Source of the DNA: Microterricola gilva
GTDB lineage: Bacteria; Actinomycetota; Actinomycetes; Actinomycetales; Microbacteriaceae
Length of the DNA stretch: 64,000 nt
Assembly (NCBI RefSeq): GCF_004217495.1
Contig: NZ_SHLC01000001.1
Span: 3,100,001-3,164,000 of the forward strand
Reading direction: 5' to 3'
Of the stretch, positions 52,984-56,963 are shown piece after piece. The stretch's first letter is position 1, and each line of letters begins with the position of its first letter. Below the pieces are notes generated by a model. The model saw only the letters and a list, made by a program, of their open reading frames with translations, did no database searches and was not told the origin of the DNA. The position numbers were made by a program, and so were the translations under genes.

Positions 52984-53907
52984 CTAGAGCTTGGTGACCT
53001 GGTCGAAGCTGAGCTCGACCGGGGTCTCACGCTCGAACAGGGACACGAGCACGGTGAGCTTGCCGCTCTCCGGCTTGATCTCGCTGATCGATCCGGGCAG
53101 GCCCGCGAAGGAGCCTTCCTTGATGGTGATCGTCTCGCCGATCTCGAAGTCGACCTCGGCCTGCAGCACGCGCTGCGCACCCTTGACCGCGCCGGCCTTG
53201 CCACCCTTGGCGGCAGGAACGTCCTTGATCTCGACGAGGCTCTTCAGCATGCCGAACGCCTCTTCGAAGCGCAGCGGCGTCGGGTTGTGGGCGTTGCCGA
53301 CGAAGCCAGTGACACCGGGGGTGTGGCGGACGACAGACCAGCTGTCCTCGTTGAGGTCCATGCGCACCAGCACGTAGCCGGGGATGCGAACACGGGTGAC
53401 CATCTTGCGCTGGCCGTTCTTGATCTCGACGACATCTTCCATCGGCACCTCGACCTGGTAGATGTACTCTTCCATGGCCATCGACGCCTTGCGGTTCTCG
53501 ATGTTCTGCTTCACGCGGCGCTCGAAGCCGGCGTAGGAGTGAATGACGTACCACTTGCCGGGCAGGAAACGCAGGTCCTGACGGAACTCTTCGTACGGGT
53601 CGGCCTCGGCCTCTTCGTCTTCGACGGCTTCCACGGCGGCCTCGGCCTCGTCGGCGGAGTCGATGTCGAGTGCGTCATCCACGATGGCGTCGGCCTCGGG
53701 GTCGATCGACTCGGCGAGGGCATCGAGAGCGGCATCGAGGTCGACGACGACGTCGCCGTCGTCGACAACGTGAACGGCGAGGTGCTCAGCAGACTCGACA
53801 GACTCCTCGGCCTCGGCGAGCGTGTTGCCCTCCTGTGCCTCGTCTTCCTCGGCGGACTGCTCGGCAGCCGTCGCCCAGTCGGCGTCTTCGTACTCAGTCT
53901 TAGACAC
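52984..53907 (-). CDS. nusG: transcription termination/antitermination protein NusG
   Basis: 307 residues. The NGN domain begins at WYVIHSYAGFERRVKQNIENR (about residue 117) and the KOW motif lies at IKEGSFAGLPGSISEIKPESGKLTVLVSLFERETPVEL. The first ~115 residues are an Asp/Glu-rich extension, longer than in E. coli but usual in Actinobacteria. NusG couples RNA polymerase to Rho, S10 and elongation control. It is between secE and rplK as expected. Confidence 0.97.
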   Translation of the reverse strand: MSKTEYEDADWATAAEQSAEEDEAQEGNTLAEAEESVESAEHLAVHVVDDGDVVVDLDAALDALAESIDPEADAIVDDALDIDSADEAEAAVEAVEDEEAEADPYEEFRQDLRFLPGKWYVIHSYAGFERRVKQNIENRKASMAMEEYIYQVEVPMEDVVEIKNGQRKMVTRVRIPGYVLVRMDLNEDSWSVVRHTPGVTGFVGNAHNPTPLRFEEAFGMLKSLVEIKDVPAAKGGKAGAVKGAQRVLQAEVDFEIGETITIKEGSFAGLPGSISEIKPESGKLTVLVSLFERETPVELSFDQVTKL

Positions 53908-54733: not shown

Positions 54734-56212
54734 ATGAAACGTCGCAGCTTTCTGATCGCTTCGGCATCCGGCATCACACTGCTGGCCCTCACCGCGTGCT
54801 TTCCGACGCAGCCGAGGCCGACCGCCTCGCCGAGCAGCACGCCAACCCCGACCCCGCCGAGCGGCGTTCCGCAGCCGCTGCGGATGGCGCGCTCGAACTG
54901 GGGCGGCGACCCATTCGCGCGCGGCGCACTCAGTTTCCCCGCCGTCGACAGCGGCGATGAGCAGCGCACGCTGCTGCGCCGCTCGCTCAGCGACCGGCTC
55001 TACTTCGCCGGGGAGGCGACGGCCAGCGACGCGCCTGGCACGGTGCACGGCGCTCTCGGCTCCGGCCTGCGCGCGGCGCTCGAGATCGCGGATGCCGCGG
55101 AAGCCGGCGAACGTATCGCGGTGATCGGCGCCGGAATCGCCGGGCTGACGGCGGCACGGGCCCTGCGCGAAGCGGGTTTCGAGGTCGTCGTCGTCGAGGC
55201 GCGTGACCGGATCGGCGGGCGCATTCAGAGCGTGACAGACCCGAAGTGGCCGATCCCGCTCGAGCTCGGTTCACTGTTTGTGAGCGAGAGCTCCAGCGTG
55301 CTCGCCGGACAGTTGGCGCTTGCGGGCGTGAGCACGGAACCGTTCGCGAAGAGCCAGGAGGTGCGCGCGGCCGACGGCACCGTCATCCCGCCATCCGACG
55401 CCGGCGCGAACGCGGTGACGAGCGCGAGCGCGTGGGCCGTGCAACAGCCTGAGGACAGCTCGCTCGCGGCGGCGCTGGTCGACTCTGGGGCCGCCGCGGC
55501 ACTCTCGGCCGAGCCCGCCGAGAATGGGATCGCCGAGACCGACTGGCTCGCGCACGAGCTCACCGCCACGGTGGAGCCGGCCGCCGGCGCAGCGCCCGAG
55601 CTCCTCTCGGCGAGGTTGAGCGGGCGCCTGGTCGCCGACAGCACCGCCGAGGCGGCGATCGTGACCGGTTCACCTGACGGCCTCGGCGGCCTCGTCGACG
55701 CCACGGCGGACGGACTCGACATCCTGACCGGCAGCCCGGTGGCCACGGTGATCTGGGGCGACGACGGAGTGAGCCTGCGCTTGGCGCAGGGCGAGTCGAT
55801 GAGCGCCGCCCGCGTGCTCATGACGATCCCGCTCGGCGTGCTCCAGCAGGAGAGCACGCTGTTCGAACCGCCGCTGCCCGGGTGGAAGCTCGACGCGATC
55901 GCCGGCATCGGCATGGGCACCGTCGACAGCGTGTGGCTGCAGTTCGACGACGCGTTCTGGGCGACGGATGCCACTGCGCTCAGCACGATCGCCACAGACA
56001 GCCCGGTCGCCTACTGGACGAATCTGCAGCCGCTCACCGGCGAGGCGATCCTGGTCGGCACGATTGCGGCGGAGCGGGCGGCCGAGCTCGCCGCACTCAG
56101 CGACGCGGAGTTCAGCGCCGTGGTGTTGGAGAGCCTGCGCCCGTACGCGCCGGATCCGACGGCTCCGGGCCCGAGCGCTCCCGCTCCGAGCCCATCCCCC
56201 GCTCCCTCCTGA
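54734..56212 (+). CDS. lipoprotein FAD-dependent amine oxidase with circularly permuted motif order
   Basis: 492 residues. The signal peptide ends in lipobox LTAC (Cys22), so the protein is probably on the outer face of the membrane. In flavin amine oxidases the order is GxGxxGL Rossmann motif first, and WGxDP..FAGEAT..GTVHGA last. Here WGGDPFARGALSF (56-68), LYFAGEAT (89-96) and PGTVHGALGSGLRAA (101-115) come first. VIGAGIAGLTAARAL (130-144) and RIGGR (159-163) follow. The protein ends, after LTGEAILVGTIAAERAAELAALSDAEFSAVVLESLRPYAP, in a Pro/Ser tail. All motifs are intact, so an active enzyme is likely. Both new termini are Pro/Ser/Thr-rich linkers. The substrate is unknown. Its 3' end overlaps the next gene tail to tail. 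Confidence 0.85.
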   Translation: MKRRSFLIASASGITLLALTACFPTQPRPTASPSSTPTPTPPSGVPQPLRMARSNWGGDPFARGALSFPAVDSGDEQRTLLRRSLSDRLYFAGEATASDAPGTVHGALGSGLRAALEIADAAEAGERIAVIGAGIAGLTAARALREAGFEVVVVEARDRIGGRIQSVTDPKWPIPLELGSLFVSESSSVLAGQLALAGVSTEPFAKSQEVRAADGTVIPPSDAGANAVTSASAWAVQQPEDSSLAAALVDSGAAAALSAEPAENGIAETDWLAHELTATVEPAAGAAPELLSARLSGRLVADSTAEAAIVTGSPDGLGGLVDATADGLDILTGSPVATVIWGDDGVSLRLAQGESMSAARVLMTIPLGVLQQESTLFEPPLPGWKLDAIAGIGMGTVDSVWLQFDDAFWATDATALSTIATDSPVAYWTNLQPLTGEAILVGTIAAERAAELAALSDAEFSAVVLESLRPYAPDPTAPGPSAPAPSPSPAPS

Positions 56213-56963
56213 GGCGGCGGGCCGACGCCCGCGCCGTGATCGTGCGGCTGACAGCGACGAGCATCGCGGTCACGGCCAGGAAGATGCCGAGCACGAGCAC
56301 ACAGTAGATTGCGATGCCGATGGCGCCGCCGACCTGGGCCGGGTCGAGGAAGAAGTACGGGTACCAGCCGACATCCGCCCCACGGATCAGGGTGAACACG
56401 AGCCAGAGCGTCGGGAACGGCAACACCCAGCCGAGTGTCGACCACGGCATCGGCGAGGTGCGGGGGCTGATCACCGCATCGACGACCCAGGCCAGCAGGG
56501 CCAGCACGGGAACCACGAAGTGCAACAGCGTGTCTGACCAGGGGACGTCGACGCGGTAGGCACGGGTCGAGGCCTGCGCCACGATCACGGCGAAGACGAT
56601 GCCGGAGACCAGCAGGTAACACATGACGACCGTGCGCACGATGCCGAGCCACTGCGGGTCACGCGGCCGGGTGAGCGCGGTCACGCCCGCGACGGTGAGC
56701 ATGATGACCGCGAGGATCGCCGACTGGATCGTGAAGTAGCTGAAGAAGTTGACGGTCGCGAAGGACGAGAAGCCGAGAACGTAGTTGAAGTTGCCGTAGA
56801 GCGCGATGAGCTCGAGTACGGCGACGGCCAGGCGGTAGACGCCGAGCCCCCTGCGCAGGCGGCGCGGGGTGTGCACCTCGGCACTCTGCGCCACGGATGC
56901 CGTTCCCTCTGGGCCCCGCCGACCCGCTGTGGGGTTCGGGGGCGCAGAAGCACGGGGGTGCAT
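56112..56963 (-). CDS. Pr6Pr family multi-pass membrane protein
   Basis: 283 residues with six membrane segments (for example NFFSYFTIQSAILAVIMLTV, DTLLHFVVPVLALLAWVVDAV and IAIYCVLVLGIFLAVTAMLV). NFFSYFT and DTLLHFVVP are Pr6Pr-family features. The C-terminal ~33 residues (RERGMGSERERSGPEPSDP onward) lie in the 101 bp that overlap the amine oxidase gene on the other strand. The start at 56963 is the longest frame; a start near GLGVYRLAVAV would remove a 40-residue hydrophilic lead. The role is unknown. Confidence 0.8.
   Translation of the reverse strand: MHPRASAPPNPTAGRRGPEGTASVAQSAEVHTPRRLRRGLGVYRLAVAVLELIALYGNFNYVLGFSSFATVNFFSYFTIQSAILAVIMLTVAGVTALTRPRDPQWLGIVRTVVMCYLLVSGIVFAVIVAQASTRAYRVDVPWSDTLLHFVVPVLALLAWVVDAVISPRTSPMPWSTLGWVLPFPTLWLVFTLIRGADVGWYPYFFLDPAQVGGAIGIAIYCVLVLGIFLAVTAMLVAVSRTITARASARRLRRERGMGSERERSGPEPSDPARTGAGSPTPRR

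Follow-up and report, generated by a model that had tools for sequence, protein, structure and literature searches.

Swapped segment order in a predicted lipid-anchored protein of the flavin amine oxidase superfamily from Microbacteriaceae

The flavin amine oxidase superfamily is large and heavily studied, with members that include MAO, LSD1 and the polyamine and L-amino acid oxidases. The locus described here raises the question of whether the chain of such a protein can occur naturally in a permuted order. The window, which is the whole stretch of 64,000 nucleotides of Microterricola gilva DNA that was analysed, contains an open reading frame on the forward strand (54734-56212; ATG at 54734, stop ending at 56212) that encodes 492 amino acids, and a reading made from the sequence only had proposed that it is a circularly permuted flavin amine oxidase lipoprotein. 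The features of the gene and its neighbour are as follows.

54734..54799, + strand: Tat-type signal peptide with lipobox LTAC, residues 1-22, Cys22 being the predicted lipidation site (R3, R4, F6 and C22 identical throughout the 30-row alignment A1)
54800..54868, + strand: Pro/Ser/Thr-rich spacer, residues 23-45, between the predicted lipid anchor and the enzyme (sequence; pLDDT <50 over 1-39)
54869..55090, + strand: relocated C-terminal FAD/substrate block, residues 46-119, with WGGDP, FAGEAT and the TVHGA helix (LSD2 699-774; own profile 114 bits; dN/dS 0.043 against the nearest relative)
55091..55105, + strand: new joint, residues 120-124, from the old C-terminal helix to Rossmann strand beta-1 (profile boundaries; pLDDT 96-97)
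55106..56161, + strand: Rossmann and substrate domain, residues 125-476, equivalent to the N-terminal and middle part of the normal enzyme (PF01593 profile 1-368; LSD1 6nqm Z 24.9 over 124-475)
55127..55144, + strand: GAGIAG dinucleotide-binding motif, residues 132-137 (no variation at G132, A133, G134, A136 or G137 across the 30 rows of A1)
55886..55888, + strand: Lys385, which takes the position of the catalytic lysine in LSD and polyamine oxidases (Lys in 9/63 and His in 41/63 family members)
56162..56212, + strand: Pro/Ser/Ala-rich tail and stop, the new C-terminus lying in the loop that leads into the WxxDP block of normal enzymes (pLDDT <50 over 478-488; alignment A2)
56112..56963, - strand: convergent gene for a Pr6Pr-family membrane protein, its 3' end overlapping that of the permuted gene by 101 bases (NCBIfam NF038065, 122 bits)

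Membership of the superfamily is given by the Pfam Amino_oxidase profile PF01593, which is matched over most of the model with 212 bits (2.2e-62; the cut-off is 19.8 bits) in two stretches, the main one running from residue 135 to 476 against profile positions 1-368. The usual N-to-C motif order of standard members is absent. Instead the motifs W56...D59P60, FAGEAT (91-96) and TVHGA (103-107) lie upstream of GAGIAG (132-137) and RIGGR (159-163), the C-terminal FAD block (46-119) as a whole stands ahead of the Rossmann/substrate part (125-476), and the chain ends at the point where a conventional enzyme enters its WxxDP block. Because the block precedes the body, the protein is a permuted variant and not a standard member of PF01593. 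A phmmer search of the PDB gives the same picture, with residues 338-703 of human LSD2 aligning to 127-480 of the query and the adjoining LSD2 residues 699-774 aligning to 44-119 (26 bits for this second piece); the segments are swapped, adjoin in the partner and are not duplicated. The Pfam and LSD2 alignments bear out the proposal that the C-terminal signature (residues 56-115) comes before the Rossmann signature. The order is common to all rows of the end-to-end alignment A1, which comprises the window protein and 29 family members taken from the loci that matched it best. Both segments are homologous to a single conventional protein, their order is exchanged, no duplicate copy is present and the old termini are joined, and judged by its sequence the protein is almost certainly a natural circular permutant of the flavin amine oxidase fold.

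Structure prediction, which had been suggested as a check, returned a confident fold. With A1 as input AlphaFold2 gave a mean pLDDT of 85.3 and a pTM of 0.82, with values below 50 only at residues 1-39 and 478-488 and values of 80-97 over the block (46-119). The best structural match was LSD1 (6nqm; Z 24.9 and rmsd 2.2 over 332 residues, model 124-475, by VIA-align), and these figures concern the body, as the aligner keeps chain order. LSD2 and, further down, maize polyamine oxidase were also among the top structures in VIA-align and Foldseek, both of which keep chain order. We also searched a piece of 157 residues across the new joint (protein 44-200) against solved structures. A best stretch running from the block start into the Rossmann part was found neither among the 60 matches listed for the whole protein nor among the 60 listed for the piece, where the longest joint-crossing matches begin in the last helix of the block (piece residues 62-67); therefore no listed solved structure has the swapped order. 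For L167, a permuted protein from a Pseudomonadota sample, folding from the single sequence gave a pLDDT of 31 and no usable model.

The same order had been proposed as something to look for in Microbacteriaceae, the family of the window, and it is present in a substantial part of it. A match at 1e-20 was obtained in 127 of 299 family genomes, and in 98 of the 299, own genome included, the match is colinear from residue 1-5 through block and joint to residue 308 or beyond; fragments of the same colinear kind were seen in three further genomes (G012, G251 and G288). The 98 genomes represent 30 of 85 genera, at identities of 36-91 percent apart from the window itself. Some of the printed matches run beyond a stop near their end, and wherever the DNA was examined a single open frame spanned both block and body. 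Order was classified using separate block and body profiles, which assigned 75 proteins as permuted and 31 as conventional, each with one block; frames matching only one profile were left unclassified (L003/L005, L006, L007, L008, L038 and an antisense frame in L057 and, in the further set, L152 with two frames, L154, L158 and L162). The permuted total is 82 distinct proteins, made up of 79 that were tallied and 3 from the Pseudomonadota sample.

Outside Microbacteriaceae, permuted proteins are present in further families of the order or class (L059, L060, L068-L072, L075, L111-L114), in further classes of the phylum (L139, L140, L141, L148) and in a sample of 249 genomes of Pseudomonadota, the phylum of a Roseovarius genome, where three genomes (L163, L164, L167) have them. 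Twenty Pseudomonadota loci were fetched, of which 3 are permuted and 17 conventional. In Pfam, each of four permuted proteins from outside the family matched PF01593 over 2-3 stretches (3.4e-62 or better). A tblastn search of plasmids gave no match at 1e-15, and a scan of genome contigs gave a single locus with a 39-residue Rossmann match.

The window gene and its nearest relative have a dN/dS of 0.13 overall (0.04 for the block and 0.15 for the body), and five other pairs gave 0.11-0.31. Both halves are under purifying selection, and the values of 0.11-0.31 across the six pairs rule out a chance open reading frame or a pseudogene. The order might also come from a separate domain that was fused on, or from an error of sequencing or assembly, but nothing in favour of this was found. 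Residues 56-115 match the flavin amine oxidase family itself, no second complete C-terminal block was found among the classified proteins, and the same order recurs in 30 genera and beyond under purifying selection; barring an artefact common to dozens of genomes this alternative is ruled out, and we regard it as exceedingly improbable. The swapped order is real, conserved and widespread. The proposal of a circularly permuted protein of flavin amine oxidase type is supported by its sequence, by the 82 distinct proteins, by selection on both halves and by the confident structure prediction.

The new termini had been described as rich in Pro, Ser and Thr, but only some family members have such a C-terminal tail, and in A2 the chains of permuted proteins from other families stop shortly past the last helix. 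Three proteins of the same genus (L010, L011 and L012) have an extra Pro/Ser/Thr-rich insertion of approximately 30-35 residues in the substrate domain, just ahead of the P(V/I)AYW strand.

At the other end of the chain the twin arginines, hydrophobic stretch and lipobox cysteine of a Tat lipoprotein are all present as a sequence pattern, in agreement with the lipoprotein assignment in the sequence-only reading. A pattern tally of open frames found both Tat motif and lipobox in all 63 permuted proteins of the family and in 69 of 79 permuted proteins overall (6 of the 16 outside the family). The remaining permuted proteins comprise 5 that are Tat-like without a lipobox and 5 scored as having no signal, two of which (L075 and L111) have twin arginines that are visible by eye. 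Conventional proteins scored differently (3 of 42 with both elements, 9 Tat-like and 30 with neither), a contrast that is somewhat overstated because the pattern missed an LP(A/G)C sequence seen by eye in conventional L073, L074 and L076. It is highly likely from these motifs that the permuted protein is a Tat lipoprotein.

In the arrangement that we propose, the ~75 residues that normally end the chain, a hairpin and helix predicted to close over the flavin, come first and pass through a short link to the Rossmann strand, with the new chain ends in one loop and the Tat-type signal and lipobox ahead of the block. Such a protein would fold with FAD bound in the cytoplasm, cross the membrane in the folded state by Tat and be retained at the outer face through a lipid on Cys22. 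With the lipid at that position the flavin/substrate lid block, and not the Rossmann half, would adjoin the anchor. Taken as a whole, a permuted, Tat-type lipid-anchored FAD enzyme is very probably the best explanation of the locus.

No signal was found in L059 and L060 by pattern, or in L163 and L164 by eye, and therefore permutation can occur without a need for export. These four form a signal-less permuted subfamily that is common to the window's phylum and the Pseudomonadota sample and forms one branch in a quick tree, which suggests cytosolic permuted enzymes and possible transfer between the phyla.

Whether the chain was permuted once or repeatedly is less clear-cut. In a careful tree of 76 rows aligned in a common order the permuted proteins need 6 label changes (5-6 in bootstrap trees), and they fall on one side in 0 percent of 200 bootstrap trees; in the quick tree the subfamily of L059, L060, L163 and L164 lies apart from the other permuted groups. 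These results favour several independent permutations at the same loop over a single one. Against this, the starred branches of the careful tree force just 1 change, the cut lies in the same loop across 16 diverse rows of A2, and an AU test does not reject a single permuted clade, with p = 0.376 for the 76 rows and p = 0.231 for an earlier set of 52 rows. We give repeated origin slightly less than an even chance. The 52-row set kept 19 of the 63 permuted family rows, dropped 11 conventional rows and added L003 as outgroup, while the later tree set dropped L003, the repeats or near-repeats L137, L138, L142, L143, L145, L159, L160 and L161, the remote conventional L168, L177 and L182, and six more permuted family rows. 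The duplication model of permutation, with a tandem duplication and subsequent trimming as put forward in the sequence-only reading, predicts a duplicated intermediate, according to PMC3320104. No such block-body-block protein was found among the classified proteins, Pseudomonadota loci included.

We compared the active site of the permuted protein with those of its relatives. The FAD-site residues are invariant across A1, and GxGxxG, the Glu after beta-2, GGR and the C-terminal GE(A/H)T block, which we take to be the FAD-binding motifs of the PF01593 superfamily, are all present and invariant or nearly so. The earlier claim that no motif is lost therefore stands for the FAD motifs but not for the substrate side, where residues have changed. 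We take Lys385 to be at the position of LSD1 Lys661 and Leu66 to be at that of the cage tyrosine, LSD1 Tyr761, so that at its LSD/PAO-type site the window protein keeps the lysine and has Leu at the cage-Tyr place. Lys is found in 9 of the 63 family members, the window protein being one of them, and also in 2 of the 12 permuted proteins from other families and in 4 of 31 conventional proteins; Tyr occupies the cage place in 3 of 63, 10 of 12 and 30 of 31 respectively. On this sequence comparison the substrate side of the window's family is remodelled. As Lys is rare in the conventional relatives sampled too, its loss is not special to the permuted forms and says little about the use of O2, and with Lys in 9/63 and the cage Tyr in 3/63 amine oxidation by O2 is only putative.

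We predict with considerable confidence that the protein is an FAD-binding redox enzyme. It would take a hydride from a small molecule that may well bear an amine, and the putative amine character of that substrate is a tentative assignment that we rate somewhat below even. In its own genus Lys385 would permit ordinary reoxidation by O2, while in most relatives, which are without the Lys, reoxidation may use another acceptor. The family may instead have left amine oxidation, as a dehydrogenase or non-amine flavoenzyme in which a membrane partner or cytochrome takes up the electrons of the flavin and the substrate is perhaps no amine. The scarcity of the catalytic Lys and the cage Tyr, the predicted membrane anchoring, the constant membrane-protein neighbour and the precedent of NicA2 and Pnao from Pseudomonas putida S16, exported superfamily members that are dehydrogenases and use cytochrome c instead of O2 (PMC9396064, in the text available), all point this way. 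The window protein, however, keeps Lys385, Lys is also rare in the conventional relatives sampled, and among the neighbours no electron carrier recurs throughout, although only frames of >170 aa were clustered and a small cytochrome is possible. A remodelled substrate side together with predicted export makes the dehydrogenase reading reasonable, and it too has close to, but not quite, an even chance. The high variability of the substrate-side residues within the family could also suit a protein without catalytic activity, a scaffold that would hold FAD or a ligand and act in signalling or in protection of the envelope; the FAD motifs hardly vary and selection on the chain is purifying, and although neither demonstrates turnover we think such a scaffold very unlikely.

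If the enzyme has a functional partner, the product of the convergent Pr6Pr gene is the best candidate. In all 28 family contexts that were fetched (one from each of 28 of the 98 genomes, in 26 genera, picked mostly one per genus) this gene was convergent and overlapped the permuted gene or lay within ~0.8 kb of it, and it was not found beside the permuted genes of other families in 12 of 12 (L103-L114, of which L106, L107, L111 and L114 are shorter stretches). Pr6Pr is found in 259 of the 299 family genomes, often in multiple copies, so its presence is uninformative and only its position is informative. Clustering the context frames of >170 aa from the 28 contexts showed that no further gene recurs in more than 22 of them; three other large clusters look like antisense frames of the permuted gene or Pr6Pr. 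One context, L079, has a Pr6Pr-like gene on either side of the permuted gene (L079:4768-6036 and L079:7664-8449). Against Pfam at E up to 10 Pr6Pr gave two matches, both far under the cut-off, and the name was absent from a literature search; it may bear a likeness to AIG1/ADTRP-type hydrolases. Synteny with secE, nusG and an aminotransferase is limited to the window's own genus (L077 and L115), all three names being our own labels, that of the aminotransferase resting on a search. The presumed nusG frame (52984-53907, - strand) encodes 307 aa with an acidic N-terminal extension. No cytochrome was found among the neighbours that were labelled.

A bolder proposal combines these observations. 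Permutation may have occurred repeatedly and independently at the same surface loop, with the Microbacteriaceae proteins always lipid-tethered outside the cell, and a lid block next to the anchor might be adaptive in that it turns the active site to face a membrane partner such as Pr6Pr. We consider this combination unlikely; were it true, a textbook superfamily would have a permuted branch, both hidden and widespread, that uses an electron acceptor of its own.

About one in three of the family genomes sampled has the permuted form, which extends to two phyla. It brings into view a redox enzyme, probably membrane-tethered and so far uncharacterised, beside which a membrane-protein gene lay in every family context fetched. 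The permuted form offers a natural experiment in how a reordered chain folds and loads FAD before its predicted export, and a test case for models of permutation by single or repeated origin at one loop. It is also a warning that annotation blind to segment order hides permuted proteins under the name “amine oxidase”. No description of a permuted amine oxidase was found among the literature matches listed, which cover openly accessible papers and in several cases are the top of longer lists, and the swapped order is apparently undescribed in this superfamily.

Among known systems the closest in sequence and structure are LSD1/LSD2 (KDM1A/B) and the polyamine oxidases, which belong to PF01593 and have the fold and FAD motifs in common with the window protein. 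The latter differs in its swapped order, its Tat-type lipoprotein signal and the Leu66 at the cage-Tyr place. The same genome encodes a conventional paralogue (L002/L004, G000:C1:1768041-1769309) that is 29 percent identical to the window protein in the body and 41 percent in the block, has the normal order and is without a Tat signal by pattern. NicA2 and Pnao share the superfamily, predicted export signals and a non-O2 acceptor; they lie in an operon with cytochrome c, whereas no labelled neighbour here is a cytochrome, and the available text of PMC9396064 makes no mention of permutation or lipidation. Rearrangements of the same kind are reported for other folds in the accessible parts of two further sources, namely the swaposins, which are natural circular permutants (PMC3320104), and the permuted flavoproteins LucY/MurB, in which the LucY permutants are man-made (PMC4408115).
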